In this document: positions 13,401 to 29,595 of the stretch, one piece after another | Layout: each line of letters begins with the position of its first letter | Numbering within the stretch: the stretch's first letter is position 1 | Assembly: GCF_028287845.1 (NCBI RefSeq) | Contig: NZ_JAQBOW010000162.1 | Location: 62,001-126,000, forward strand | Direction: 5' to 3' | From: Mucilaginibacter sp. | GTDB taxonomy: Bacteria; Bacteroidota; Bacteroidia; Sphingobacteriales; Sphingobacteriaceae | DNA: 64,000 nt | The notes under the pieces: generated by a model | The model's database searches: none | What the model saw: the letters and a program-made list of their open reading frames with translations, nothing else | Told to the model about the DNA's origin: nothing | Position numbers and translations under genes: made by a program

Positions 13401-14182
13401 ATTAAATAATAAGGTGCATTGTAGGCTATTTTATCCCATGATTGGGTGCGCGAATCATAAAAGCCAAAATTATAATCAACCGAATCTCCGGGCAGGCCAT
13501 ACCATTCCCACCTTGATGTTGTTTCGTCATAGTTCCAGCCTGCCACATCACCATAAGAATGATTGGATAGCAGCAATCCCGGCGCGGCGCGACTCATTTC
13601 GGCAACATCATTATTAAAATCGTATGATAGTAATGTGGCGGCATTAAATGCCATGCCCTTAGCCGGTGCATAAATACCCTTAGCCAACATTGTACCTGCC
13701 ACGTGTGTAGCATGGTCAATTATAGTTGAGGTATCTTTAAGTGATATGGTTTTACCTGCAAACTCCTGGTGCGCACTATATACCCAGCCACCATCCCAAA
13801 TAGCCAGTTTGTTATTTAAGAAAGTACTTGAACCCGATAAATTTAACCCTGTTGAACCGCCCGGCTGCACCTGGTTGGTACCTGTAGTTGCTGCAGCGGT
13901 AGTATTATTATGCGTGGTTAAATATACCGGGAAGCCTAAGCTGTTTACACCCTGTAATGAAATCAAACCACCATTGCGGGTGCGGCGGTTAATTAACCAC
14001 CCCCGGCTTTTTGCAAGGGATAATGCTTTTTGATGCCCCTGTTGATATAAGTTATTTGATTGTGTAAAAATATTATCAAGTTCTGTTTTTTTAGTGCCGG
14101 TAACCAAAACCTGCTGACTAAATGCCTGGTTGGCAAACACTAATAGAAAACACCAAAAAGCGGCTGTGTAAATTTTGTTCAT
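10442..14182 (-). CDS. Secreted subtilisin-like S8 serine peptidase with T9SS sorting domain
   Basis: A 1,246-residue extracellular protease, using the ATG at 14182 because it places a signal peptide (MNKIYTAAFWCFLLVFANQAFS, mature Gln) at the terminus; a TTG five codons earlier is less likely. The S8 catalytic triad is present: Asp130 in AIWDGG, His157 in DHATHVAGTM and Ser383 in GTSFSAP, with the oxyanion Asn in ESAGNS. After the catalytic domain come a jelly-roll/P-type region, a GEVED-like segment with DWDGNGIFDAGE, a CARDB-like segment, two Ig-like regions, and a C-terminal ~75-residue type A sorting domain ending in KVIIIR. It should be moved by SecA/Sec and then the T9SS to the surface. 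Target proteins are unknown. Confidence 0.93.
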   Translation of the reverse strand: MNKIYTAAFWCFLLVFANQAFSQQVLVTGTKKTELDNIFTQSNNLYQQGHQKALSLAKSRGWLINRRTRNGGLISLQGVNSLGFPVYLTTHNNTTAAATTGTNQVQPGGSTGLNLSGSSTFLNNKLAIWDGGWVYSAHQEFAGKTISLKDTSTIIDHATHVAGTMLAKGIYAPAKGMAFNAATLLSYDFNNDVAEMSRAAPGLLLSNHSYGDVAGWNYDETTSRWEWYGLPGDSVDYNFGFYDSRTQSWDKIAYNAPYYLIIESAGNSRGYPGPAVGATYYGYTSRTDQTFVNKGPRPATISSNTGYDVISTTGTAKNILTVGAVNSLPNGPSSSADIITAYFSSWGPTDDGRVKPDLVADGVNILSSSSSGVAAYSAEDGTSFSAPNVTGSLYLLQEYYAQKNAGAFMRAATLKGLACHTAFDAGNPGPDYIFGWGLLNMPRAAQAITDNNIKSLIKENTLTQGQTQTFTTVASGNGPLMATISWTDPQGTPTVDGTINSRTPKLVNDLDIRVTDGTTTYMPWVLDPANPGVAATTGDNIRDNIEQVYLANAIPGHTYTITISHKGALQSGSQAYSLIVTGAGGTAYCASAPTSNADSRINNFTFSNINNTPAAGCTSYSDYTNLTAQLEKGKTYPLSITLGTCGSNFNKAAKVFIDWDGNGIFDAGELVATTGIISTPGTYTTSVTVPATVVPGNYSMMRVVLTETNDTTTIQPCGSYGKGETQDYRVQFLQASTDAGVTAIVNPQATGTCNGTTTVTVTIKNFGALAISNIPVTVSIKAPDNTVTIISETYTGTLTPLQQDDFTFSNTFNAVAGSTYTITASTALTGDAISANNQSSQNVLIFTPGAPYNLAALYCINANNYLLTGAGDGQLLWYQNSTDAVPFAYGTSVSTGVTPVSSTFYAGLNDFSATVGLATKNVFSGGGYNQFSPAVKVYTAIPMIIQSARLYIGNAGVITFNVTNANGQVVATTIIHATATRANPQPGAQADDPTDQGKVYNLNLLLPAAGNYTISAVYDATVTIFRNNNGVSGYPFKIGNLFSITGNDAGPTTGTDTTYYKSFYYYFYNMQIKSAGCPSLSRVAVTLSKPVITQTGNILNSSFASGNQWYLDGKPISGATGQTYAPLQSGNYQVDVTLSTGCVLQSDAFVYALIALHPGTDTDIGLVTFPEPANKQLNVLFVAKTASQLTLSLINSGGAIAYSKTQAAAAGSFSTVINVADLSAGTYVLRAVLGSKVYAQKVIIIR

Positions 14183-14514
14183 ATAATTAGGAGGCAATTT
14201 AGTTTACTAAAAGCAGCTAAACAAGTTTCCCGCATTTTTAATCACTTATAAAAATTTTCGATGATGGATACCGTAGCAGATTAAAGCTTAAAACTCTTTA
14301 ACGAGAAAAAACAAACCCAGTTAGGGGAATTATTTCTACTAACTATAAAGAAATTTTTTTATAGTTTTTTTAATTAAAACAAATCAACATCATCAAATTA
14401 TACATATAGAGGGATAAAATTTGTCATATCATTCCAGATTGTTTTAACAAAGTCTTCCTAGCATAACTTTTGTTTAATAGCTACCAATACCAGTTGAGCT
14501 ATAAACAATTAGAA
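14183..14514. other. Divergent intergenic region, promoter-bearing
   Basis: A 332-bp A/T-rich gap between the protease (leftward) and the small PID-CTERM-like gene (rightward). It should hold promoters for both. Toward the right gene there is TAACTTTTG at about 14464, a one-base-longer variant of the Bacteroidota -7 box. No repeat, ORF or RNA gene is visible. Confidence 0.4.
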
Positions 14515-14730
14515 ATGAAAAAAACAATCGCTTTAACCTTATTATTTTTAGTTATGGCCATGACGGTTGTTGCCCAAGATCCCGGCGCTCCTGCATGTGG
14601 TGGCGGTGATCCGGATCTTTCTGACTGCCCGCTTGACTCGTGGGTGATGTTATTAGCTGGATGCGGTTTAATTATTACCGTTTTGTATTTAAATAATAAG
14701 CAAAAGGCTTCACGCCAATTGCTTTCTTGA
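14515..14730 (+). CDS. Small exported protein with PID-CTERM-like tail
   Basis: A 71-residue protein, starting at the ATG of MKKTIALTLL; longer in-frame starts would bury the signal peptide. A signal peptide ends VVA with Gln21 as the likely mature residue. A short acidic/Gly/Cys loop (DPGAPACGGGDPDLSDC) follows, then PLD and a hydrophobic helix (WVMLLAGCGLIITVLYL), and a basic tail (NNKQKASR). This signal-loop-PxD-helix-basic layout matches the PID-CTERM class of short Bacteroidota proteins, a predicted sorting tail with no proven partner. It is 44 bp upstream of the giant NHL protein and probably cotranscribed. The PID-CTERM match is from memory of the pattern, not from a search. Confidence 0.65.
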   Translation: MKKTIALTLLFLVMAMTVVAQDPGAPACGGGDPDLSDCPLDSWVMLLAGCGLIITVLYLNNKQKASRQLLS

Positions 14731-14774
14731 ATTAATCATTTTTCCTTGTAATTATTTTACTAATAATTTAAACA

Positions 14775-17700
14775 TTGAACAAGCCAAAACATATTATTTT
14801 TTTGCTGTTTTTACTACTTTCAACCAGCAAATTGTTCGCCCAGGCGCCTGTTATTACTTATAACACTCCACAGATACTTGCTGTGGGCAGCGCGGTGTCA
14901 CTATCTCCCACTAATACCGGGGGAGCCGTTCCTGCCACTGTTTACGGCACCGTTTCAACTTTTGCAGGCACAACAAGTGGCTTTGTGAATGGAACAGGAA
15001 CCACTAACGTAAAATTTGCTTTACCCAGAGGTATGACTATAGATGCTTCGGGCAATATGTACATTGCCGATCAATCTAATAACGCGATAAGGAAGATAAC
15101 AGCCGCCGGAGTGGTAACAACACTTGCCGGAAGCGGCGTTGCCGGTAAAATCAACGCCACTGGCACTAGCGCCAGCTTTAACACTCCGTATGATGTGACC
15201 GTAGACGGCTCAGGCAACGTATATGTTGCCGATTATGCAAATAACGAAATACGAAAAATTACTTCTGCAGGCGTAGTGTCTTTGCTGACCGGCAGCGTAA
15301 CCGGAGCCACCGGCTTTACCAATGGAACAGGAAGCGCTGCACTTTTTAACGGCCCTGCCGGCATTGCCTACAGTTCTACTGCTACCGCAATGTACGTGTC
15401 TGATTATACTAATAATGAGATAAGAAAAGTAACATCAGCCGGCGTGGTAACGCTACTTGCGGGAAGTACAACCGGAGTAACCGGAAATACTAACGGTACA
15501 ACTACAGCTGCCAGATTTAACGGGCCTACCGGAATAGCAGTTGATGCTGCTGGTAATATATATGTGGCCGACCAAAACAATAACCAAATAAGAAAAATAA
15601 CATCTGCAGGCGTTGTAACCTTGTTTGCCGGTAATACCGCAGGCACCGCCGGTTCTGCAGACGGAACAGGTTCAGCTGCAAGTTTTAACAACCCCAGAGG
15701 AGTAGCAGTTGACGCATCAGGCAACGTATATATTAATGACAGTGGTAATTTCACTATCAGAATGATAACTCCTACCGGAGTTGTAACTACAATAGCAGGC
15801 AACGGGACCGCTGGTTTAATTGACGCTGTTGGCACAGCGGCCGAATTTGACGGAAGGGTTTTAAAAGTAGATCCTACTACCGGCAATATATTTTTAGCAG
15901 ATTATAACAATAACGTTATCAGAAAAATTATTGCTACCGGGTATAGTATTAGCCCTACATTGCCCGCGGGTTTAACTTTTGATAGCACTACCGGTATAAT
16001 AAGCGGCACACCTACAGCCATTGCTACCTCAACAGCCTATACCATTAAAGCGTTTAACAGTACGGGCAGTTCGTCTGCAACTATTACATTAAGTGTAGTT
16101 ACGGTGCCCTCTATTAGCTATAGCCCTGCAATACAAACATACTCTCTTAACCATGCTATCAGCACTTATTCGCCTACTTCATCCGGCGGTGCAATTGCTT
16201 CATTTACCGGATATGGTATAGGCACCCAGGTTACCGGTGTAACTTTAAGCAGCCCATTTGGCATAGCCAAGGATGCCTCAGGCAATATTTACGTGGCTAA
16301 CAGCGCGGCTAACAATATTATTAAATACAGTACAGGGGGCACAATAAGCGCATTTATTACAGGGGTAATCAATCCGGTAGGTTTAGTTTTTGATTCATCC
16401 GGTAATTGCTATGTATTAAGTAATGCTGCCGCCAGTAAGGTATACAAATACCCTTCAACCGGCGGATCAACCGGTACACTTTTAACTTTTGGCGCCACTG
16501 CGCTGCAAACTTCATTCGGCATTGCAATTGATGCCGCTGATAATTTATATATTACTAATTATAGTGGCACAACTACTAATACCTACAAAGTTTATAAATG
16601 CAGTACCAGCGGGGGTAGCCCACTGTTAACTATAGCGTCAACAACCAACTTAAGTCAACCGGTTAATGTGGCACTGGATAATGCGGGGAATATTTATATA
16701 CTAAATATTAGAAACAATACTGTTGTTAAATACAATTCAGCCGGAACATTTCAATCATCCCTTATAACAACTACCGGAGCCCCATACGGATTATGTGTTG
16801 ATGGCGCGGGCCATATATATGTTGGTGATCCGGGAGCCGGAACAGTTAAGGTTTATAACCCAGCCGGCGGCACCGCTCTTTTTAGTATTACCCAAGCCGG
16901 CTCACGTGGCCTTATAACTGATAACGCGGGTATGCTATATGTATCAGATTTTACCAACAGTAAACTATATAAATATGTACCAAACGGCGGCTATTTTATA
17001 AGTCCTAATTTACCTATCGGTTTAAGCATTAGCAGTACAACCGGTAATATTACGGGTACGCCTACAGCGGTAACCGCCATGACTACTTATACCGTAACTG
17101 CTTATAATACAAGCAACGCGGGAGGCAGTTCAACCACGCAGATCAATATTTCAATACAACTTTTAGCACCCGATATTAGCTATACCACACCTGTTTCTTA
17201 TTTTGTTAGTGCGGTTATTACCAGCCCAACCCTTACAAACGCAGGCAGCCCGGTTGTAACCACTGTTGGGTACAGCAGCACAGCAGCACAGCCTTTCGGC
17301 ACAACGTTTAACAACCCTTCACGTATGGCCGTTGACGCTTCGGGCAATATCTATATAGCCAATTTTAGCGGAAATAATATAGTTAAATATGCATCGGATG
17401 GTACTACCTTGATAACCACTTCATATGGTACAGGTGCTCCTGCCCTTGTCAACCCGATGGGAATAGTCTTTGATTCGGCCGGTAACTGTTATGTATTAAA
17501 TGCAAACGCCACCATATATAAATACAATTCAACAGGCGCATATCAAAGTACTATTACTGTAACCGGAGCGGGTACTACTTATGGTTTGGCTATTGACGCA
17601 TCGGACAGACTTTATATTACCAGCTATGGAACATCAACTGCAATATATAGATATACTACCGCCGGCGTTGGAGCCTCAATAATAACTGCAAGTTTAAGTA

Positions 17701-20700
17701 CGCCTGTTGACGTTGATATAGATGCAGCCGGGAATATTTTTGTTTTAAACCAGGGTAACAATACAGTTGAAAAATACACTACCGCGTTTGTAGCTTCAAG
17801 TTTCAAAACCGGACTTAGTACTCCCTTTTCATTAAAAATTGATAAAGTAAACAGCCTGATGTATATAGGCAATACAAGCAGTAATAATATTTTGGTTTGC
17901 ACGCCAGCCACCTCCACTACCTTATATACCATAAGTAACGCTACTGATTGCCGTGGTTTAGCTCTTGATTTAACAGGTACCGTCTATTCTGCAAATTTTA
18001 CCGGTAACCAGGTTTATCAATTTTCGCCATCGGGCGGATATTTTTTAAACAAAACCTTACCTGCAGGTTTAACTTTTACTGCTACTTCGGGTGCCATTGC
18101 CGGAACACCATCGGTATCAAGCGCTGCGACTGATTATACCGTTACCGCCTGGAATGCGGCTGGCAGCGGCAGCGGGATTATCAATATAACCTGCTATCAA
18201 AAAAAGACCTGGATAGGCACAGGCGCCAACATTTCATGGATCACTGCAGGTAACTGGACCGGTGGTGTACCCGGACCTGCCGACCAAATTATTATTGGTG
18301 CTACCGGTACCTTATCTACCCCTACTATATCCGCTGCAGGGGTAACTCAAATAGGTTCGATAGTGATGCAAAATGGCGCTACCACAGCCCCGTCAATTTC
18401 TGTAAGCAGCGGTGCTACTTTAACAGTTACCGGCGATATTACCTATCAAAACCTCAGCGCCACTGTTCAAGTAGCCACACTTTCGGGAGCGGGTACTATA
18501 AATGCTGCCAATCTTAATGTAGTAAATAATTTTAGTGCTCCTTCTTATCCAGAAACACTGGCCTCATCTGTTGCTAACCTTAGCTTAAGCGGTAACCTTT
18601 CTCTTACCTCAACACACCCTTCAGGAACCAGGTATGATGATGCTGCTTTTAATTTGACATCAGGCATAATGACAGTGTCGGGTATACAAACAAGTAATGC
18701 CATTGTAAATAATTCGCCTAATATTTCAATAGGTAATAATACAACGTTGCAGTTTACAGGCGCTACGCCATTATCGGGCCTTTCATCAACGGGTACAAAC
18801 ACTATAACTATAGGCACAGGAGTAACTATAGGTTATACCGGAACCAATGACCAGGTTGTTTATTCAAATATGGCCGTCCCTAACTCAAATTTAACAACTG
18901 GTATTAGCTATGCTAATATATTATTTAGCGGCTCTGGTGTAAAAACTGTTCAGGGTGATAATACAAAGAATTTAAACATCAGCGGCAGCTTTACTAACTC
19001 GCTTACCAGCAATGGCACAACTACTTTTGTAGATTTAAGTGGGCCAACCGTAAACTTTACGGGCTCGGGCCAAAGTTTAGCCGGCGGCAGCGGTACAGGT
19101 ACAACACTTTTTAATACCGTTTTTACAGGTGGCGCCAAAACCATGAGCGGCAAATTTAACGAGGATAACCAAAGCGCTATTACCTTTAACGGAACCAGCT
19201 CTACAACTTTAGATGCCGGAGCGGGATCATTAACTTTAAATTCAGACGCGGCGGGTTCTGCAACTATAGCATCATTAAACCCAGCAGGTACAGTTACCGG
19301 AGTAATTAATGGTACTGTAAATGTACAACGGTTTGTAACCGGCGGCGGTGATTTAACCAACCGTGGTTACCGGTTATTTTCATCACCGGTGTCTGATGTA
19401 ACAGCAACGGGTTTTTACAACCTATCTTACTTTTTTGGCAGTGGTACTTACATAACCGGAGCGGGTGGTGTAGCGGGTGGTTTTGACGTTTCTGGCAACC
19501 CTACAATTTATTTATATCGCGAAGACAAAGTACCAAGTGTTGCATCATTTAATGCCGGCAATTACAGAGCAATAACTAAAATAAACAATAATCCAAACTA
19601 TAATATAAGCACAATTGATGGCGACTTTAACCTACCTGTTGGTAACGGTATATTATTCTTTTTTAGAGGAAATAACAGCACCAATGCCAGTATAGCTCCA
19701 AATGATGTTATATTAACTACATTAGGCCATCTAAACCAGGGGCAGGTTGTGGTTAAAGATTGGTTTAACTCGGGCTCAAATACTTTAGCTAATTCTACTT
19801 TAAGTGGTTCAACATCCATTCAGGGATTTAACCTGGTGGGCAATCCATACGCAAGTTCTATTGACTGGAATACGATATATAACAACACAACTACAACAAC
19901 CGGCATTTGCTGCTCAACCAATTTAAGTAATTCTATATATATCTATAATACGGCTACAAAAAATTACTCGGTTTATACCGCCACAAGTTCATCAGCAGGT
20001 TTTGCAACAGGTGCTCCCGGTGCATCAAACATTATTCCGCAGGGCCAGGGATTTTTTGTTCGGGCACTTACCTCAAGTGCGCAGCTTATATTTAATGAAT
20101 CGGCAAAAGTAACTAACCAGCCAGCTGTTTTATTATTAAATGCTGCTACCCCGGTTGCTGATCAGCACTTGCGCCTTCAGTTAACGAAGGATGCCATTAA
20201 TAAGGATGAAGCCGTAATTGTTTTTAACAATGCAGCTACTACCGCTTATTCACAACGCGATGATGCCTTATACTTAAAAGGATCGGGCTTAGTAAGCTTG
20301 TCGGCAATGTCAAGCAATAAACTGGCTTTGGCACTTTATCAAACACCGCTTCCAAAGCAATCGCAAACTATTCCGTTAAATATCAGCGTTACAGCTACTG
20401 GAACTTATCAGTTAAATTTAACCGAAGCTAAAAATATACCTGCCATATATGATGTTTGGTTAATGGATGCTTATAAAAAGGATTCGTTAGACATAAAGCA
20501 TAATCCTAATTACAGCTTTATGGTAACCGCCGATACCAGCACCACCGGATCACATAGATTTAGCTTGGTTATACGTCAAAACTTAGCCAATGCCGTCCAT
20601 CTTTTAAGCTTTAATGCTACTAAAGGCACAACTGATGTAAAAATAAACTGGTCTGCAGAAAACGAAGGCAATTACACCACATTTGTTTTAGAACGGAGCA

Positions 20701-21143
20701 TAAATAACGGCAGCACCTTTACCGTCCTTGATAGTTTAACATCAGCAGGCTTGGGCACTTATAATGATCTTGACCCACACCCGGTGACAGGCCAAAATCT
20801 ATACAGGTTAAAAATGGTTGATATTAATGGAAATATAACCTATTCAACTAATGTAGTTATTACGTTTACACAGCCCAATGCTCCTGTTGTTAGTAATATT
20901 AATGTTTACCCTAACCCTACAAAATCTGTAATAAACTTAGCTATAAAACAAGGTGATTCTGCCTCTGCACCTTACAAAATAAGCATCTCTAATAATACAG
21001 GCATTGTTGTAAAAACAGGTACATCCGGACAGCCCGAATGGCACACCGACGTAAGCACATTATTGCCGGGCACTTACTTTATAGAAGTGGTAAATACAAA
21101 AACCAATAGCTTAACCGGCCGAAGTGCATTTATAAAACTATAA
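14775..21143 (+). CDS. 2,122-residue secreted NHL-repeat/Ig-like protein with T9SS sorting domain
   Basis: Starts at TTG: an in-frame stop lies two codons upstream and no ATG occurs until about residue 86, while TTG gives an intact signal peptide (KHIIFLLFLLLSTSKLFA, then Gln). Three similar modules follow, each an NHL-type propeller with repeats like 'DASGNIYVAD.NNNIRKIT' and then a putative Ig (He_PIG) unit with LPAGLTF...G.ISGTP. The He_PIG units begin near residues 388, 739 and 1088. Residues ~1140-1560 are Thr/Ser/Gly-rich repeats opening with a W..GNWTGGVPG motif. The C-terminus from about 2040 (VYPNPTKSV) is a type A T9SS sorting domain. Probably a cell-surface or released adhesin/binding protein; ligand unknown. 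Confidence 0.9.
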   Translation: MNKPKHIIFLLFLLLSTSKLFAQAPVITYNTPQILAVGSAVSLSPTNTGGAVPATVYGTVSTFAGTTSGFVNGTGTTNVKFALPRGMTIDASGNMYIADQSNNAIRKITAAGVVTTLAGSGVAGKINATGTSASFNTPYDVTVDGSGNVYVADYANNEIRKITSAGVVSLLTGSVTGATGFTNGTGSAALFNGPAGIAYSSTATAMYVSDYTNNEIRKVTSAGVVTLLAGSTTGVTGNTNGTTTAARFNGPTGIAVDAAGNIYVADQNNNQIRKITSAGVVTLFAGNTAGTAGSADGTGSAASFNNPRGVAVDASGNVYINDSGNFTIRMITPTGVVTTIAGNGTAGLIDAVGTAAEFDGRVLKVDPTTGNIFLADYNNNVIRKIIATGYSISPTLPAGLTFDSTTGIISGTPTAIATSTAYTIKAFNSTGSSSATITLSVVTVPSISYSPAIQTYSLNHAISTYSPTSSGGAIASFTGYGIGTQVTGVTLSSPFGIAKDASGNIYVANSAANNIIKYSTGGTISAFITGVINPVGLVFDSSGNCYVLSNAAASKVYKYPSTGGSTGTLLTFGATALQTSFGIAIDAADNLYITNYSGTTTNTYKVYKCSTSGGSPLLTIASTTNLSQPVNVALDNAGNIYILNIRNNTVVKYNSAGTFQSSLITTTGAPYGLCVDGAGHIYVGDPGAGTVKVYNPAGGTALFSITQAGSRGLITDNAGMLYVSDFTNSKLYKYVPNGGYFISPNLPIGLSISSTTGNITGTPTAVTAMTTYTVTAYNTSNAGGSSTTQINISIQLLAPDISYTTPVSYFVSAVITSPTLTNAGSPVVTTVGYSSTAAQPFGTTFNNPSRMAVDASGNIYIANFSGNNIVKYASDGTTLITTSYGTGAPALVNPMGIVFDSAGNCYVLNANATIYKYNSTGAYQSTITVTGAGTTYGLAIDASDRLYITSYGTSTAIYRYTTAGVGASIITASLSTPVDVDIDAAGNIFVLNQGNNTVEKYTTAFVASSFKTGLSTPFSLKIDKVNSLMYIGNTSSNNILVCTPATSTTLYTISNATDCRGLALDLTGTVYSANFTGNQVYQFSPSGGYFLNKTLPAGLTFTATSGAIAGTPSVSSAATDYTVTAWNAAGSGSGIINITCYQKKTWIGTGANISWITAGNWTGGVPGPADQIIIGATGTLSTPTISAAGVTQIGSIVMQNGATTAPSISVSSGATLTVTGDITYQNLSATVQVATLSGAGTINAANLNVVNNFSAPSYPETLASSVANLSLSGNLSLTSTHPSGTRYDDAAFNLTSGIMTVSGIQTSNAIVNNSPNISIGNNTTLQFTGATPLSGLSSTGTNTITIGTGVTIGYTGTNDQVVYSNMAVPNSNLTTGISYANILFSGSGVKTVQGDNTKNLNISGSFTNSLTSNGTTTFVDLSGPTVNFTGSGQSLAGGSGTGTTLFNTVFTGGAKTMSGKFNEDNQSAITFNGTSSTTLDAGAGSLTLNSDAAGSATIASLNPAGTVTGVINGTVNVQRFVTGGGDLTNRGYRLFSSPVSDVTATGFYNLSYFFGSGTYITGAGGVAGGFDVSGNPTIYLYREDKVPSVASFNAGNYRAITKINNNPNYNISTIDGDFNLPVGNGILFFFRGNNSTNASIAPNDVILTTLGHLNQGQVVVKDWFNSGSNTLANSTLSGSTSIQGFNLVGNPYASSIDWNTIYNNTTTTTGICCSTNLSNSIYIYNTATKNYSVYTATSSSAGFATGAPGASNIIPQGQGFFVRALTSSAQLIFNESAKVTNQPAVLLLNAATPVADQHLRLQLTKDAINKDEAVIVFNNAATTAYSQRDDALYLKGSGLVSLSAMSSNKLALALYQTPLPKQSQTIPLNISVTATGTYQLNLTEAKNIPAIYDVWLMDAYKKDSLDIKHNPNYSFMVTADTSTTGSHRFSLVIRQNLANAVHLLSFNATKGTTDVKINWSAENEGNYTTFVLERSINNGSTFTVLDSLTSAGLGTYNDLDPHPVTGQNLYRLKMVDINGNITYSTNVVITFTQPNAPVVSNINVYPNPTKSVINLAIKQGDSASAPYKISISNNTGIVVKTGTSGQPEWHTDVSTLLPGTYFIEVVNTKTNSLTGRSAFIKL

Positions 21144-21159
21144 TATCACCGCATAAGAA

Positions 21160-21192
21160 AGCCTTGCAAAATCTTAAAAATTTTGCAAGGCT
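21160..21192. terminator. Bidirectional terminator between NHL protein and DUF4136 gene
   Basis: Perfect 13-bp stem AGCCTTGCAAAAT (21160-21172) with ATTTTGCAAGGCT (21180-21192), loop of 7. It lies between two convergent stop codons (21143 and 21217). T-runs follow on the plus side (ACTTTTTTT near 21205). Confidence 0.8.
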
Positions 21193-21216
21193 ATAAAACG
21201 TTTTACTTTTTTTAAT

Positions 21217-21951
21217 TTATATTGATTTGCTTGAAGTTGGGCTAACTACCGCGCCTCTGCCACGCGGGCCTCTGCGGTCGGACCGGCCACCTGCGGGCGG
21301 AGCAATTGATGGCGCCATGCTTAGTTGATCTAAAACACCGCTTACCACCTTAGGTAAATCGTCAATATCTTTTTGATGATTACGATGCACTTCGCCAACT
21401 CCAAATCCGCGCCAAACTACCTGTTTGCTTCTGCGATCTATTATATCAATGATTAAAGTTCCTTCTTTGTAATGTTCCTGTCCGGAGGCTGTATATCCGC
21501 CGTAATAGGCAAACGGCGCACCGTAAGCATAGTAATATGGCCGGTAGAAACCACCCCAGCCTCCCCAACCGCCGTATCCAAAACCAAAACCAAAACCCAT
21601 ACCCAAACCCATACCAGGATATATGCCACTGCCATAATAAGTAGGGTAATAATAAGTACGCACTCCCCTGCCTACTATTGATGAGTAACTTATTAATACA
21701 TCGGGGTCGCGCTGGTTTAATACTAACCCTTTAGTTACCAATGCAGCGGTAGCCGCATCTTTAATTTTAGCATCAGCAACCATATTGGTGTTTGCCTTAC
21801 TGTTATCATGTGCCACAGGCATCCAGGCAAAAGTGTGATACCTGCTTAAATTTGTTCTGTTTAAACCCGCAACATAATAATCATAACTGGTACAAGATGA
21901 TATACCAGATACCAGCAAAGCAACCAGTACTACATAAATTGATTTTTTCAT
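21217..21951 (-). CDS. DUF4136-type lipoprotein with Gly/Tyr-rich insert
   Basis: A 244-residue lipoprotein; the signal ends in the lipobox GISSC (Cys20). The N-terminal segment TFAWMPVAHDNSKA and AATAALVTKGLVLNQRDPDVLISY is the DUF4136 pattern (short conserved lead, then an ageing 'DPDxxI.Y' strand), and the C-terminal GTLIIDIIDRRSKQVVWRGFG is the second half of the domain. Between them, residues ~100-150 form a low-complexity Gly/Tyr/Phe-rich loop (YPGMGLGMGFGFGFGYGG). The tail is basic and Arg/Gly/Pro-rich. DUF4136 proteins are envelope lipoproteins of unknown role. The gene shares a terminator with the NHL gene. Fairly sure of the family. Confidence 0.85.
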   Translation of the reverse strand: MKKSIYVVLVALLVSGISSCTSYDYYVAGLNRTNLSRYHTFAWMPVAHDNSKANTNMVADAKIKDAATAALVTKGLVLNQRDPDVLISYSSIVGRGVRTYYYPTYYGSGIYPGMGLGMGFGFGFGYGGWGGWGGFYRPYYYAYGAPFAYYGGYTASGQEHYKEGTLIIDIIDRRSKQVVWRGFGVGEVHRNHQKDIDDLPKVVSGVLDQLSMAPSIAPPAGGRSDRRGPRGRGAVVSPTSSKSI

Positions 21952-22112
21952 AGCTATTTTCCATCTAAATTATTTCATTAGACTGCCGATATATAAAAGG
22001 TTTAATATAAATTAAGTTTTTTTTACAGTATAAAATTTATTAAACTTAATGCTATCTGGTTTAAAAAAAGCCAATCAAAAATCGCACATTTGCACATCCC
22101 ATATTAAGGAGA

Positions 22113-23402
22113 ATGAGCCAATACTTTATAATAGATTTCGATAGTACATTTACACAGGTAGAAGCTTTAGATGAGCTTGCCCGCATATCTCTAAAAAATC
22201 ATCCCGACAGAGAAAAAATATATCAGCAGATAGAGGACCTGACTAACGCTTCAATGGAAGGGCGATTGTCATTTAGCCAAAGCCTTGAATCGCGCGTAAA
22301 ACTTTTACAAGCCAACCGCGAACATTTAAAGCAGCTAATAACTCACTTGAAGAAAAAGGTTTCTACTTCATTTTCGCGCAATACTATATTTTTTAAAAAT
22401 CACCAGGACGAGGTTTTGATCGTATCGGGCGGTTTTAAAGAATTTATTATACCGGTAGTTACCGAATATCATATCAAAAGAGAAAACATTTATGCAAATA
22501 CTTTCGAGTTTGACGAAGAGGGTAACATTATTGGCTATGATCGCGCAAACCCATTATCGCAGGAAGGCGGCAAAGTTAAGCTGTTAAAGGAGCTTAAACT
22601 GGAAGGCGATATTTATGGCATTGGCGATGGTTACTCTGATTTCCAATTAAAGGAATCAGGCATGATCAAAAAATTCTTCGCTTTTACAGAAAATATAGAG
22701 CGCAAATCTGTCGCCGAAAAAGCAGACCACATCACTCCAAGCTTTGATGAGTTTTTATATATCAATAAGCTGCCCCGTGCTATATCCTACCCCAAAAACC
22801 GCATTAAATGCCTTGTTGTAGGCAATATTGAAGAGGATGTATTAACCCAAATGCAAAAAGAGGGTTATAATATACGCCAACGCGATAGCATTGAAGAAAA
22901 ATACCTGGATGAAGCCGGTGTATTACTTTGTGATGAAGAGAACCAACCAACGCCAGAGCAGGTACAAAATGCAGGCAGGCTAAAAGTTATTGGATGTTTT
23001 GGTAAGATAAACCGCAAACTATCAGAAACAGCTTGCGAGAGCGGCATCATTATTTTTGACGACCCTAAGCATAATCCGCGTAATGACGATTTTTTACCGA
23101 AACGAGTTATTGCTTTTATGAACGAGGGGAAAACGCATACCAGTTGTAACTTTCCTGATTTGCAGCCGCCGCGTATAAATAATGCGCACCGGTTAATACA
23201 CATCCATAAAAATGTACCAGGCATATTGGCCAAAATAAATGACGTATTTGCCCGCCATAACATTAATATAGTTGCCGAATTTTTGGTTACTAACGAGCAG
23301 ATTGGCTATGTAATAACTGATGTTAATACCGGTTATGATACCGAGGTATTAAATCAGCTTAAAGCTATCGAACATACTATTAAGTTCAGGTTGCTGTATT
23401 AA
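22113..23402 (+). CDS. serB: HAD phosphoserine phosphatase fused to SerA-like ACT region
   Basis: A 429-residue fusion with an AAGGAG ribosome site just before the ATG. Residues 1-215 are a HAD-IB phosphatase of the SerB type: Asp8 and Asp10 in DFDSTFT, Ser105 in VSGGF, Lys154, and Asp172/Asp176 in GDGYSD. It would dephosphorylate phosphoserine in the last step of serine synthesis. From residue 230 the chain resembles 3-phosphoglycerate dehydrogenase: IKCLVVG and LKVIGCFGKINRKLSETA resemble the SerA substrate lobe, and 331-429 (RVIAFMNEGKTHTSCNFP, HIHKNVPGILAKIN, final FRLLY) match the SerA C-terminal ACT region. The NAD-binding domain is absent. The ACT part may bind serine as a regulator. 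A serB symbol is the best fit for the enzyme half. Confidence 0.85.
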   Translation: MSQYFIIDFDSTFTQVEALDELARISLKNHPDREKIYQQIEDLTNASMEGRLSFSQSLESRVKLLQANREHLKQLITHLKKKVSTSFSRNTIFFKNHQDEVLIVSGGFKEFIIPVVTEYHIKRENIYANTFEFDEEGNIIGYDRANPLSQEGGKVKLLKELKLEGDIYGIGDGYSDFQLKESGMIKKFFAFTENIERKSVAEKADHITPSFDEFLYINKLPRAISYPKNRIKCLVVGNIEEDVLTQMQKEGYNIRQRDSIEEKYLDEAGVLLCDEENQPTPEQVQNAGRLKVIGCFGKINRKLSETACESGIIIFDDPKHNPRNDDFLPKRVIAFMNEGKTHTSCNFPDLQPPRINNAHRLIHIHKNVPGILAKINDVFARHNINIVAEFLVTNEQIGYVITDVNTGYDTEVLNQLKAIEHTIKFRLLY

Positions 23403-23429
23403 GTTGGTGGTTCATGGTTAAAATTCACA

Positions 23430-23909
23430 CTATGAACTATGATCCGGAAACGGCACCACCAAAACCGGCACTTCTGAGTGGCGCACTACATGCTCTGCAA
23501 CGCTGCCCATTATCAGGCGGTCAAATCCGGTGCGGCTATGGGTACCAATAACTATCAGATCTGCTTTAAACTGTTTGCCGCATTCTATAATACCACCGGC
23601 GGTATCACCAAATTCGCTAAAATGCGTTACATCCAAGTCGCCGGCAAATTTTTTGATGGCGTCATTTATGATGCTTTCTGAAAGCTCATTTTGGATATTA
23701 ATTATATCTATATCAGCCACCCCCATATCCTGCATAGTTGATCCCAATATAACATCGCCCGAATTATTGTAAGGCATTATAGTAGGTTCAACAATATTTA
23801 CCAACCCAACATGGGCCTTAAATTTATGGGCAATATCAAATCCGTATTTGGCAGCGTGTTCGGCATATTTACTATTATCTATCCCGATGAGTATTTTCTT
23901 GATGAGCAT
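23430..23909 (-). CDS. Universal stress protein, UspA family
   Basis: A 159-residue cytoplasmic single UspA domain. The N-terminal [27 protein letters not shown] holds the Asp that contacts nucleotide in ATP-binding members. Near the C-terminus [31 protein letters not shown] carries the G-x2-(S)-R-x-G...G-S ATP-binding loop, so this is probably an ATP-binding Usp. Usp proteins accumulate under growth arrest and stress. It converges with serB (27-bp gap) and is followed by 88 bp to an esterase gene. No promoter is obvious upstream. Confidence 0.92.
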
Positions 23910-23996
23910 GGTTATTAAGGTTAGTGTAGATATATAAACAAACTAAGGGCAATATGTTTTGAGCCCCTCTAAATCTCCCCTGGTAGGGGAGATTTA

Positions 23997-24902
23997 TTAA
24001 AAGCCGTTGGTATTCATCCAGCTTATGCACCAGTCCAGCCAATGCTCGTTGCTTTTTTTATTGATGAGGCCAAAGCCATGCCCGCCTGCCGGGTAAATAT
24101 GCATTTCGGCCTTTACGTTTGCTTTAGCCAAAGCACTATAAAAATTTAAAGCGCTCTGTATGGTTACCAATGGATCATCTTCGGCCTGTACCATAAAAGT
24201 GGGCGGTGTATTGGCCGTGATATGCTTTTCGCTACTGTACAACTCTATTTGCTCTGCCGTTGGATTAAGGCCCAGTAAATGATCTTTAGAATCATGATGT
24301 TCTGCATTGCTAAAAGTGGTAGCCGGGTAAAGTAGCACCATAAAATCGGGCCGTAAATTAATATTGGCCAAATTAGCGACAACTGGTTTATTAGACCACG
24401 CCGCTGCTGTTGTAGCCAAATGCCCCCCTGCCGAAAAACCCGCCATACCAACTTTAGCCGGATTAATACCCCATTCGGCTGCACGGGTGCGCACCATTAT
24501 TAATGCTTGTTGGGCATCCTGCAAAGGCCCAATGGTTTTATCTACCATTATCAAATCGCTGGGTAAGCGGTATTTTAATACGAAAGCTGTTATACCAATT
24601 TTGGCAAAAGCTACGGCAATGTTTGTGCCTTCATTATCCATAGAAAGCTGGTAATATCCACCACCCGGGCAAATAATTATTGCGGTACCGCTAGCTTTAC
24701 CTTTTTCGGGAAAGTAAGGCGTAAGGGTAGGTATGCTCACATTTGTAACCCAGCCTTTTCTAACTATGGTTTCTGCATAATCAGCAGGGGTTGGCTTTGA
24801 ATTAGGCACACCATTAGGATATAACGGAATAGCAGTTTCCTGCGCATGAGCTAATGAAATAGCGGTAATGAATATGAATGCTGTAATAAATAGTTTTTTC
24901 AT
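23997..24902 (-). CDS. Exported alpha/beta-hydrolase esterase (copy 1)
   Basis: A 301-residue secreted esterase of the BD-FAE/acetyl-xylan-esterase-like alpha/beta-hydrolase group. The ATG at 24902 gives a clean signal peptide (ISLAHA, mature Gln21); a TTG seven codons upstream is rejected. CPGGGYY (79-84) is the oxyanion segment, Ser157 in GFSAGG the nucleophile, Asp242/243 in AEDDP and His275 in GGHGFG the rest of the triad. Such enzymes remove acetyl or feruloyl groups from polysaccharides in the periplasm or outside the cell. The second copy lies 33 bp upstream on the same strand, equal in length. No carbohydrate-active partner lies next to it here, so the substrate is open. Confidence 0.88.
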   Translation of the reverse strand: MKKLFITAFIFITAISLAHAQETAIPLYPNGVPNSKPTPADYAETIVRKGWVTNVSIPTLTPYFPEKGKASGTAIIICPGGGYYQLSMDNEGTNIAVAFAKIGITAFVLKYRLPSDLIMVDKTIGPLQDAQQALIMVRTRAAEWGINPAKVGMAGFSAGGHLATTAAAWSNKPVVANLANINLRPDFMVLLYPATTFSNAEHHDSKDHLLGLNPTAEQIELYSSEKHITANTPPTFMVQAEDDPLVTIQSALNFYSALAKANVKAEMHIYPAGGHGFGLINKKSNEHWLDWCISWMNTNGF

Positions 24903-24935
24903 GAATAAATTATTAAATAACAAGGTAGGATATTG

Positions 24936-25841
24936 TTAAAAGCCGTTAGCATTCATCCAGCCGGCGCACCACTCAAACCAATGTTCTTTGCTTGTGGGGT
25001 TATTCAGCCCAAAGCCATGCCCTCCCGCCTGGTAAAGATGCATCTCTGTCTTAACTTTATTTTTTAGCAGTGCCTCATAAAACAACAGGCTGTTTTGCAC
25101 GGGTACAGTTTTATCATCACCGGCCTGCACAATAAAGGTTGGCGGTGTATTTGCTGTAACTTGCTTTTCGTTCGAATAAAATTCTATTTGTTCGGGTGTT
25201 GGGGTTAAGCCTACCAGGTTATTCCGCGATCCTTTATGTGCAAATTCGCCAAAGCTAATTACAGGGTAAAGCAACAACATAAAATCAGGACGAACGCTGG
25301 TGTTATCTTTATTATCGACAACCGCTTTATCAAAATGTGTTCCGGCGGTCGAGGCCAGATGCCCTCCTGCCGAAAATCCCATAATGCCAACCTTAGCCGG
25401 ATCAACGCCCCAGGCTGCGGCATTTTTGCGTATCATCACGATAGCAGCTTGTGCATCCTGCAGCGGCCCAATGGTTTTATCTACCATTATCAAATCGCTT
25501 GGCAAGCGGTATTTTAATACGAACGCGGTGATACCTATTTTATTAAACTCTTTAGCTACCGCATAGCCCTCTTTATCAATGGCTAAACCACTGTAACCGC
25601 CACCCGGACAAATAATTACAGCAGTACCGGTAGCCTTACCTTTCTCCGGAAAAAATGGAATTAGGGTTGGAACACTGGTTGCTGATGCATGGCCATCGCC
25701 ATTCTTTTCAATATAAGTTGCCGGGGTTGGTTTTGAATTGGGGACACCGTTAGGGTATAATGGAATTACAGGTGCCGTGCCTTGCGCATAGGTTATAGTA
25801 GCCATGGCCATTAATAGCAATGTGGTGCAGAAAAATTTCAT
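24936..25841 (-). CDS. Exported alpha/beta-hydrolase esterase (copy 2, tandem paralogue)
   Basis: Also 301 residues. The ATG at 25841 starts MKFFCTTLLLMAMATITYA (signal peptide, mature Gln20); the longer in-frame reading adds a basic, non-signal N-terminus and overlaps prfB, so it is rejected. The same motifs appear in the same positions as copy 1: CPGGGYS, Ser157 in GFSAGG, QAGDD and GGHGFG. Both share the 21-residue-plus stretch beginning FVLKYRLPSDLIMVDKTIGP. The two genes are a tandem duplication, probably cotranscribed, and may act on related acyl groups. A hairpin at 25878-25910 separates it from prfB. Confidence 0.88.
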   Translation of the reverse strand: MKFFCTTLLLMAMATITYAQGTAPVIPLYPNGVPNSKPTPATYIEKNGDGHASATSVPTLIPFFPEKGKATGTAVIICPGGGYSGLAIDKEGYAVAKEFNKIGITAFVLKYRLPSDLIMVDKTIGPLQDAQAAIVMIRKNAAAWGVDPAKVGIMGFSAGGHLASTAGTHFDKAVVDNKDNTSVRPDFMLLLYPVISFGEFAHKGSRNNLVGLTPTPEQIEFYSNEKQVTANTPPTFIVQAGDDKTVPVQNSLLFYEALLKNKVKTEMHLYQAGGHGFGLNNPTSKEHWFEWCAGWMNANGF

Positions 25842-25877
25842 AATAAAAGATTTATACAATAATAAATCTTTTAGAAG

Positions 25878-25910
25878 AGACTTACGAAGTAATTTAAACT
25901 TCGTAAGTCT
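25878..25910. repeat. ACTTACGAAGT-type hairpin between prfB and esterase
   Basis: A perfect 13-bp inverted repeat, AGACTTACGAAGT (25878-25890) and ACTTCGTAAGTCT (25898-25910), loop AATTTAA. It lies 13 bp beyond the prfB stop codon, so it probably ends or protects the prfB transcript. A near copy with one extra base occurs at 34845-34876 and the core is in the 5542-5573 hairpin. Confidence 0.75.
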
Positions 25911-25923
25911 AATTGGAGTAAAA

Positions 25924-27016
25924 TTAACTCTTCGGCCCGCCAAACTCCATAAGGTAAGCTTTTAGAAAATCGTTCAGATCGCCATCTAAAACCGCAGCGG
26001 CGTTTGATGTTTCGTGATCGGTACGCAGATCTTTAACCAGCTTATAAGGGTGCAATACGTAGTTACGTATTTGCGATCCCCACTCTATTTTCTTTTTGTT
26101 GCCTTCAATTTTATTTGATGCTTCAGCACGTTTACGCATTTCGGCCTCGTACAATTGCGATTTTAGTAAACGTATGGCGTTATCCTTATTTTGCAATTGC
26201 GAGCGCGACTCCTGGTTCTTAATGATAATGCCCGAAGGTTTGTGATACAAACGCACAGCAGTTTCTACCTTATTTACGTTTTGTCCGCCAGCACCGCCCG
26301 AGCGGAAGGTTTCAAACTCAATATCCGCAGGATTGATCTCTATTTCGATAGTATCATCAACCAATGGATAAACATATACCGATGCAAATGAAGTATGGCG
26401 CTTAGCGTTCGAATCGAACGGCGATATACGTACTAAGCGGTGTACCCCGTTTTCGCCTTTTAAATAACCGTATGCAAACTCGCCCTCCAATTGCAGGGTT
26501 ACGGTTTTTACACCGGCTGCCTCCCCTTCCTGGAAATCCTGCTCGGTTACTTTGTAACCATTCTTTTCGCCCCACATAATATACATCCGCATCAGCATCC
26601 CGGCCCAGTCGCAGCTTTCGGTACCACCCGCGCCTGCTGTTATTTGCATCACGGCATTAAACTGGTCCTCTTCGGCCGATAGCATGTTTTTAAATTCCAA
26701 CTCTTCAACCACTTTTATGGCCGTATTGTATTGTTCCTGCATTTCGGCTTCGGTAGCATCGCCGCTCCGAAAAAATTCAAACAGCACACCAGTATCTTCA
26801 ATTACCGATGATACTTTCTGATACTCGTCTGTCCAGACTTTCTTTGTTTTGATGGAAGCTAAAACCTTTTCAGCTTCTTTAGGATGATCCCAAAAATGGG
26901 GGTCGAGAGTTATATCCTGTTCTATTTTTAATGCATCAAGCTTCTTGTCGATGTCAAAGATGCCTCCTCAGGGAAATTAATCTATCCCTTAAATCCTGGA
27001 TCTGTTCTTTAGTCAT
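25924..27016 (-). CDS. prfB: Peptide chain release factor 2, with programmed +1 frameshift
   Basis: RF2 ends translation at UGA and UAA codons. The gene reads from the ATG at 27016 for 20 codons ([12 protein letters not shown]...), meets an in-frame TGA at 26956-26954, and continues in the +1 frame (GAC ATC GAC...) to 25924, giving 363 residues. Key motifs in the second frame are the stop-codon-reading SPF in VRISPFDSN and the catalytic GGQ in [10 protein letters not shown]. The first 21 codons and the TGA would be missed by a plain ORF search. RF2 autoregulates by this frameshift. A hairpin follows the stop. Neighbours are the two esterases downstream, and a hypothetical gene upstream beyond a structured gap. 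Confidence 0.95.
26953..26968 (-). promoter_or_regulatory. prfB programmed +1 frameshift site
   Basis: On the minus strand the site reads AGGAGG CAT CTT TGA C. The Shine-Dalgarno-like AGGAGG lies three bases before the slippery CTT, followed by the UGA stop and C, with the same spacing as the E. coli prfB site. When RF2 is scarce, the ribosome pauses at TGA and slips forward one base to read GAC. Seen directly in sequence; function is well established for this motif. Confidence 0.93.
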
Positions 27017-27062
27017 GGGGCAAATATAGAAAAATGCAATTGTTATAATAACAACTTAGCGG

Positions 27063-27178
27063 CGATTACTCCCTGACATCTGCGTGGAAAGAGGATTGGG
27101 GAAATTAGTCCCCAAAAAGCCCCTTTTCCGCCAAGAACGAAGGGTGGTCCCGCGAAGCTTAGACCTGATGAGTAATCG
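27063..27178. repeat. Structured noncoding segment between prfB and the next gene
   Basis: CGATTACTC (27063-27071) pairs with GAGTAATCG (27170-27178), enclosing a smaller 7-bp hairpin TTGGGGA/TCCCCAA (27096-27102, 27109-27115). No coding potential. It may be a degenerate small repeat element. Evidence is weak because the outer arms are short. Confidence 0.35.
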
Positions 27179-27204
27179 GCGCGTTTAAATCAGTTCCCCT
27201 AAAT

Positions 27205-27235
27205 AAAAAAAGCCTATTCGCATTAGCAAACAGGC
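27205..27235 (-). terminator. Rho-independent terminator of the 27261-27695 gene
   Basis: On the minus strand GCCTGTTTGC-TAAT-GCGAATAGGC (27235-27212, 10-bp stem with two G-T wobbles) is followed by TTTTTTT (27211-27205). It starts 26 bp after the stop codon at 27261. Confidence 0.8.
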
Positions 27236-27260
27236 CCTTAATAGGTAAATGAGGATATTT

Positions 27261-27695
27261 TTAAGCCACAGCCAACTCGCTCAATAAATTGTTCAAGTTA
27301 TAATTACCGCTTAGCATAGCCAATAACTTGCTTAATGCAAAATCATTGTTTTGCGGGCTTTTTGATTGTTGTATCATTTCCTGCATAACCGGCGGGATAA
27401 GCTCTTTAGCAACTTGCAAAGCTGCAACAGGCTCAATACCATAATAGTTATTAAGTTTATTGGCAAATTTATTAACGGTGCTGTTAATTAGCGGGTTGTT
27501 ATAAATGCCGGGGAATTGAAAATATTTGATCAAATCTTTTAGCTTACCATTTTCCACCTGGCCCTTTAATACTTCAATAATCGAGCTCGACGCTTCATTT
27601 ATCACTGCTTCATGATATTTTACAGGAATTACAGGGTTATCAATAACAGCCATCCCGGCGTTACTTTTAACAAGCATAAAAAGTTTTTCAAACAT
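27261..27695 (-). CDS. Conserved hypothetical cytoplasmic protein
   Basis: A 144-residue, helix-rich soluble protein with no signal peptide or membrane segment. It is rich in Asn, Leu, Val and Lys, with a repeated helical look (AVINEASSSIIEVLKGQVENGKLKDLIKYF; NSTVNKFANKLNNYYGI). The C-terminal LSKLLAMLSGNYNLNNLLSELAVA resembles the ends of DUF937/YidB-like proteins, but I would not assign it. Its own terminator follows and pgi is divergent upstream. I do not recognise a function. Confidence 0.7.
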   Translation of the reverse strand: MFEKLFMLVKSNAGMAVIDNPVIPVKYHEAVINEASSSIIEVLKGQVENGKLKDLIKYFQFPGIYNNPLINSTVNKFANKLNNYYGIEPVAALQVAKELIPPVMQEMIQQSKSPQNNDFALSKLLAMLSGNYNLNNLLSELAVA

Positions 27696-27891
27696 AATAC
27701 AAATACATTTAAAGTTTGGTTATCAAAATGATGATAAATAAGCCTTTTATTTATCAATAGCGCAAATATATTAAATACAAATTTAAAATATGTAAACGAT
27801 ATATAATTATCGTTGAAAATTTTACAATCGAATGAATGCAAAACAAATAATCTAAACAAGTGTTATATAACCCCTGTGTCACTTAGTTTAA

Positions 27892-29595
<1,704 letters not shown>

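Follow-up and report, generated by a model that had tools for sequence, protein, structure and literature searches.

A gene of Mucilaginibacter sp. encodes a HAD-IB phosphoserine phosphatase (SerB, residues 1-222) fused to type II 3-phosphoglycerate dehydrogenase (SerA, or PGDH), from which the NAD-binding domain is cleanly missing. It lies on contig NZ_JAQBOW010000162.1 of assembly GCF_028287845.1, in a stretch of 64,000 nucleotides that is called the window below. We consider it likely that the gene product serves as phosphoserine phosphatase of the cell and carries its own serine sensor, such that serine at an ACT dimer interface lowers its activity. An earlier note, made from the letters of the window alone, had described a fusion gene at 22113-23402; its open reading frame, length of 429 aa, and coordinates proved exact. 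The features, in window coordinates, are as follows.

22113..23402, plus strand: whole gene, SerB fused to SerA remnant, 429 aa (ORF, profile searches, phmmer)
22113..22778, plus strand: HAD-IB phosphoserine phosphatase domain, residues 1-222 (Pfam HAD and TIGR01488 above cut-off; structure)
22782..22805, plus strand: fusion joint ISYPKNRI, residues 224-231, common to short and full-length fusions (alignment)
22791..23084, plus strand: SerA substrate-binding lobe, N-terminal part, residues 227-324, E. coli SerA 7-111 (alignment, structure)
23082..23090, plus strand: excision point, residues 324-326, with E. coli SerA 112-305 (NAD domain) gone (alignment)
23088..23183, plus strand: substrate-binding lobe, C-terminal part, residues 326-357, E. 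coli SerA 306-336 (alignment)
23184..23399, plus strand: ACT domain, residues 358-429 (Pfam PF22629; predicted beta-alpha-beta-beta-alpha-beta)
23205..23207, plus strand: His365, counterpart of E. coli SerA serine-binding His344 (alignment; role as given in PMC6300728)
23211..23213, plus strand: Asn367, counterpart of E. coli SerA serine-binding Asn346 (alignment)
23265..23267, plus strand: Asn385, counterpart of E. coli SerA Asn364, which contacts serine from the other subunit (alignment)

Within window positions 14000-28000, cmscan gave no match to a riboswitch or other described RNA element. Among other features of the window, positions 14775-21143 (plus strand) encode a secreted repeat protein of 2122 aa that has numerous NHL-like repeats and ends in a sorting-like tail. 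On the minus strand, two neighbouring and similar esterase-like secreted proteins with GGSAGGHLA-type motifs (23997-24923 and 24936-25943) are apparently a tandem duplication. Also on the minus strand, prfB (release factor 2, 25924-26960) has AGGAGG-CAT-CTT-TGA-C upstream of its listed ORF start, which we take to be the motif for prfB programmed +1 frameshifting; such a frameshift appears to occur here.

The phosphatase half had been described in the earlier note as intact, and every residue named there (Asp8, Asp10, Ser105, Lys154, Asp172, and Asp176) is present, aligns to human phosphoserine phosphatase (PSPH), and is invariant both in the 36 other short forms, that is, fusions without the NAD domain, and in the 29 aligned full-length fusions. 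The HAD motifs are the nucleophile DxDST at 8-12, Ser 105, Lys 154, and GDGxxD at 171-176. In human PSPH, which has no fused regulatory module, Glu29 and Arg65 bind substrate and are specific for phosphoserine. Their counterparts are Glu17 and Arg61; in the same alignment of 36 other short and 29 full-length forms, Arg61 is invariant and Glu17 is replaced once, by Asp, in a full-length fusion. Pfam finds the HAD phosphatase at residues 6-179, and the NCBIfam model TIGR01488 (HAD-SF-IB) passes its cut-off of 45 with 65.9 bits. With 70.1 bits, the SerB equivalog model TIGR00338 stays under a cut-off of 144.15 that is a naming threshold and not a mechanistic feature; the substrate could therefore be another phosphate ester. 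The predicted structure of residues 1-216 superposes by VIA-align on that of the human enzyme (6hyy; Z 19.4, rmsd 2.6 Å over 203 residues). A search of the window's whole genome for other proteins matching the fusion at E 0.1 or better found none, and thus no second SerB or ACT-bearing SerA close to the fusion was seen.

The C-terminal half resembles SerA over two separated stretches. Multiple alignment pairs residue 324 of the fusion with E. coli SerA 111 and residue 326 with 306. Phmmer against solved structures aligns residues 224-324 to E. coli SerA 4-111, weakly (i-Evalue 0.39), and residues 331-429 to E. coli SerA 311-410. Identity to E. coli SerA is 26/101 over residues 226-326 and 32/72 over the ACT part. 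The NCBIfam SerA model PRK11790 likewise matches in two stretches (E 5.7e-41), with 140.5 bits against a curated cut-off of 404, a shortfall expected when half of the domain is gone. Pfam recognizes the 2-hydroxyacid dehydrogenase lobe only at E 0.065, under its cut-off, so the identity of the lobe was settled by structure. An AlphaFold2 run, with the window protein and 49 relatives as input alignment, gave a model with mean pLDDT 85.9 and pTM 0.75 (the five models ranged from 74.1 to 85.9); it represents one chain and carries nothing on oligomers. Residues 230-340 form one complete beta-alpha lobe and residues 359-428 an ACT fold. By VIA-align, residues 227-429 superpose on the six best PGDH entries (3k5p, 2p9e, 2p9c, 1sc6, 2p9g, and 1psd) with Z of 26.7-27.2 and rmsd of 1.8-2.0 Å over 202-203 residues, spanning their residues 6/8 to 410/412 and skipping the NAD domain. 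Foldseek also found PGDH (E-values 7.8e-16 and weaker), with an rmsd above 20 Å in most of those rows because the phosphatase was included in the attempted alignment.

These results uphold the earlier note's view of a SerA-like C-terminal half made of substrate lobe and ACT tail, with the nucleotide-binding domain missing. E. coli SerA 112-305 is without counterpart, and a nucleotide-binding fold is neither present in the AlphaFold2 model nor reported by Pfam. The note had offered two findings that would tell against it, a segment unrelated to the SerA lobe or a complete NAD-binding fold; residues 227-429 do have the SerA lobe and ACT fold, and no NAD-binding fold is there. The SerA catalytic residues Arg240, Glu269, and His292 are absent from the protein as well. 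With both the NAD-binding domain and the Arg-Glu-His catalytic set gone, the protein is not a PGDH. The SerA substrate motif Arg60-Ser61 is Asp-Glu in the window protein and is absent from 38/38 aligned short forms, and the hinge Gly336-Gly337 of E. coli SerA is replaced by Asn-Ala.

The ACT domain (PF22629 at 361-424, E 1e-12) has the features of the serine-binding type known from type II SerA, both the ACT fold and the triad counterparts His365, Asn367, and Asn385. PMC6300728 describes how, in E. coli SerA, serine sits between two ACT domains, where one contributes His344 and Asn346 and its partner Asn364. This His-Asn-Asn triad is kept in 84/84 aligned proteins, namely 38 short forms, 29 full-length fusions, 14 further fusions from one family (f11, see below), and 3 split SerA proteins, and is conserved between proteins as far apart as 43% overall identity. 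The kept contact residues suggest that the ACT module senses serine. The triad remains where the SerA catalytic set is lost, so the serine site outlives the dehydrogenase that it once served, and on the short-form chain the phosphatase is the sole enzyme left.

Conservation is uneven along the protein. Mean identity to 19 relatives from other genera is 76% for SerB, 69% for ACT, and 42% for the lobe, and within the genus the median dN/dS is 0.021, 0.023, and 0.070 for the same regions, values that come from the minority of pairs in which dS was not saturated (15/105 pairs for SerB, 31/105 for ACT, and 22/105 for the lobe). On these estimates, with dS mostly saturated, the gene is under purifying selection in the genus. 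The lobe is so much more variable than its flanks that it may be a mere spacer, and its lower conservation between genera is what one would expect if it is an arm and not an active site. The fast evolution of the lobe would also fit a C-terminal half that only dimerizes or stabilizes the phosphatase, with the serine site a structural relic that has no ligand; ACT domains are able to serve as oligomerization modules, and Grant's review (PMC6300728) observes that added domains are not always functional. We judge this unlikely, given that the three serine-contact residues are identical in all of the aligned proteins, even the most distant. Two of the triad residues are polar side chains that reach into the ligand site of E. 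coli SerA and are unneeded for the fold.

The earlier note had proposed a check on spread within Bacteroidota, which gave a near-universal short form in one family and full-length fusions in other Bacteroidia families. The short-form gene was found in 34/36 other genomes of the same genus; the two without it are 58% and 61% complete. A sample of the family that includes Pedobacter and Sphingobacterium (f1) had the gene in 191/201 genomes, and an order sample, overlapping with the first and with all rows from that same family, had it in 249/250. Among the matches listed, every one from an f1 genome reaches residue 429 in one frame with no stop. Named genomes yielded 462 relatives, and among the best 80 of these the ORF is 424-433 aa long in 79, with the remaining one truncated at a contig end. 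Carriers with names include Pedobacter, Sphingobacterium, Pelobium, Nubsella, Daejeonella, and Olivibacter. Outside that family, the short form occurs in Niabella aurantiaca (Chitinophagaceae) and in two genomes, G049 and G377, of family f14. In G377 (locus L099) the short form and its SerA are each broken into two overlapping frames, which likely reflects sequencing error in that genome; in the short form, the reading frame changes at residues 80-83. G377 was left out of alignments and trees for this frame change; also left out were G433 (two contigs), G642 (an 89 aa fragment), and L130 (at a contig start). An error of assembly or annotation, or a gene in decay, would account for the gap in the domain and for nothing more; the single open frame in nearly every genome of the genus, the uniform length at named loci, and the low dN/dS refute it for practical purposes.

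The joint ISYPK[NS]RI is common to short forms and to full-length SerB-SerA fusions of other Bacteroidia families, which have the same domain order, keep the NAD domain, and are direct ancestors in form. A class-wide sample matched in 77/296 genomes. These rows comprise 13 short forms from f1, 2 short forms from f14, 40 one-frame SerB-SerA fusions of 603-732 aa, one fusion over two contigs (G433), 3 cases of SerB and SerA in neighbouring separate frames, and 18 matches to the ACT end only, mostly in frames of about 410-430 aa, a length that ordinary type II SerA would have. Of the 40 one-frame fusions, 29 were aligned in the main set, and G486 entered a later alignment. Since full-length fusions share the joint, the NAD domain would have been lost from a complete fusion. 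The earlier note's idea of a serine-sensing module taken from the first enzyme of the pathway thus holds as to its source, on the strength of the SerA lobe and ACT fold and the kept triad, but the module was probably not borrowed piecemeal.

Damage to the dehydrogenase is found in fusions of full length also. The catalytic set Arg240-Glu269-His292 is intact in 25/29 full-length fusions, 0/14 of the f11 additions, and 0/38 short forms. It is lost in part or whole in G347, G528, G363, and G437, of which G347 keeps His292 and Glu269 and has lost Arg240. G528 and G437 belong to family f11, where 17/46 genomes have matches; 14 further f11 fusions could be read (G637 is cut by its contig), and 14/14 are without both Arg240 and His292. 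In type IIIK SerA, a lysine replacing that histidine can be active, as reported in PMC6303947; the f11 fusions differ from that case in that the arginine is gone as well. The full-length fusion of G363 (L100) has a strongly decayed SerA active site and a long branch of its own, and is possibly another independent decay. Taken together, the sequences read as a history in which a complete fusion would have become first a dead and then an excised dehydrogenase.

Phylogenetic trees, rooted for drawing only, bear on the number of excisions. The first, of 62 rows and 429 window columns, places the f1 short forms and Niabella in one clade (100/99), with the dead fusions G528 and G437 as its neighbouring pair (99/97). 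In the second, with 12 f11 rows added and G363 left out, the f11 rows group together (100/100), and a split with 88/96 divides them and the main short clade from all other rows. In both trees the G049 short form falls among the full-length fusions, on a very long branch. This position, apart from the main short clade, disfavours a single excision for all short forms. A constraint that unites every short form lowers the log-likelihood by 18.8 units, with an AU p of 0.065 that gives no rejection at 0.05. With the long branch and this p value, two excisions are the better reading, not proven, and the second, in G049, looks independent of the main one. Three loci of one genus (L105, L106, and L107; genus g75 of family f12) have SerB and SerA as separate neighbouring frames, and two of them are in the tree. 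Their nesting inside the fusions (G529 and G376; 99/89) suggests later fission of a fusion.

The genome of the window has a separate SerA of 324 aa, with lobe and NAD domain and, by Pfam, no ACT (a type III SerA), located 63 bases from SerC on the same strand. An orthologue is present in 21/21 family genomes tested (69-100% identity). This type III SerA was also found in 4 genomes of named family members, in G049, and, in two pieces, in G377. Among the 29 full-fusion genomes, 14 have a separate SerA of that kind (43-61%, with orthology less certain for the lowest three), and 15 have generic relatives only. The 15 all keep the fused catalytic set, and the 4 damaged fusions are all among the 14; with f11 included, a separate SerA occurs in 17/18 genomes with a damaged full-length fusion, counts that are not independent because the genomes are related. 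At 12/15 loci, SerC was found in the stretch around the separate SerA, the exceptions being G363, G049, and Niabella. A strict rule that a dead or excised SerA part implies a type III SerA is broken twice. G633, an f11 genome with a dead fusion, has no separate type III SerA at E 1e-60. Niabella aurantiaca (L149 and L209) has the short SerB form and a separate, ACT-bearing type II SerA, and yielded no type III orthologue at a threshold of E 1e-46. The sensor therefore has not simply moved in Niabella, where the short gene was possibly acquired by transfer.

The presence of an ACT-less SerA raises the possibility that the lobe-ACT arm senses serine and acts in trans on that enzyme, SerB being the carrier. 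Without it the genome's SerA would itself lack serine feedback, and pairing of ACT domains between subunits is described in PMC6300728. Such action is nonetheless improbable, more so than a relic serine site, for the fusion has lost the NAD domain and type III SerA offers no ACT domain to pair with. The NAD domain is the other contact between SerA subunits. Moreover, 15/29 aligned full-length fusions are in genomes without a separate type III SerA match, which means that the architecture did not arise for control in trans.

Feedback by serine on the phosphatase of the same chain is what the retained lobe and ACT domain most likely provide. The ancestor would have been SerB fused to a complete type II SerA. 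In lineages with a separate ACT-less SerA beside serC, the fused dehydrogenase would have become redundant, its active site decaying first and its NAD domain being cut out later. What remained would be the substrate lobe, serving as rigid arm, and the ACT domain, serving as serine receptor. Two chains would pair through their ACT domains, L-serine would bind at the ACT-ACT interface to His365 and Asn367 of one and Asn385 of its partner, and phosphatase activity would fall as the lobe-ACT arm moves in response; we infer the phosphatase activity, the dimer, serine binding, and the sign and strength of the effect alike. In E. coli SerA, according to PMC6300728, the lobe-ACT unit turns relative to the NAD domain when serine binds, and the unit that rotates is the unit kept here, which supports the proposed feedback. 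Against it, phosphoserine would accumulate under such control, and textbook logic does not put feedback at the end of a pathway.

Among described systems, the window protein shares with type II PGDH (E. coli SerA) the lobe-ACT arrangement (rmsd 1.8 Å over 202-203 residues) and the triad, and differs in lacking the NAD domain, Arg240, Glu269, His292, and Arg60-Ser61, and in having a phosphatase in front. Mycobacterial SerB2 (ACT-ACT-PSP) likewise joins a phosphoserine phosphatase to ACT, but as two N-terminal ACT domains, whereas the window protein has one C-terminal ACT (358-429) on a SerA-derived lobe, with serine residues of the E. coli SerA type; the window phosphatase starts at residue 1-6, leaving no tandem ACT before it. 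PMC10564941 reports that L-serine partially inhibits M. tuberculosis SerB2 and shifts its oligomer, a precedent for a phosphoserine phosphatase that serine inhibits through ACT domains. Control of SerB by ACT, and regulation derived from SerA, are of a known kind; this architecture and its route are new. Among the papers listed by our literature searches, on the architecture and on ACT-bearing SerB, there was no published account of the architecture. Databases already name such proteins HAD-IB phosphatase or phosphoglycerate dehydrogenase, and a full-length fusion of Echinicola has reportedly been re-annotated from mutant fitness. In the part of GapMind that was available, Pedobacter sp. GW460-11-11-14-LB5 appears among remaining gaps for a lysine step only, which implies that some SerB candidate was accepted there.

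Serine control of the pathway has probably moved from its first step to its last. We lean, with somewhat less assurance than for the function of this one gene, toward the broader view that Bacteroidia shifted end-product control from the first enzyme to the last through fusion, death of the active site, and excision with the effector site kept, with surviving intermediates and at least two excisions. The steps by which a live enzyme dies and is reduced to a bare regulatory module can then be read within one gene, and the effector site is kept at each of them. Annotation calls for caution, as the C-terminal half scores as SerA yet cannot be a dehydrogenase. For the family, including Pedobacter and Sphingobacterium, the proposed feedback predicts an unusual control point in serine synthesis.
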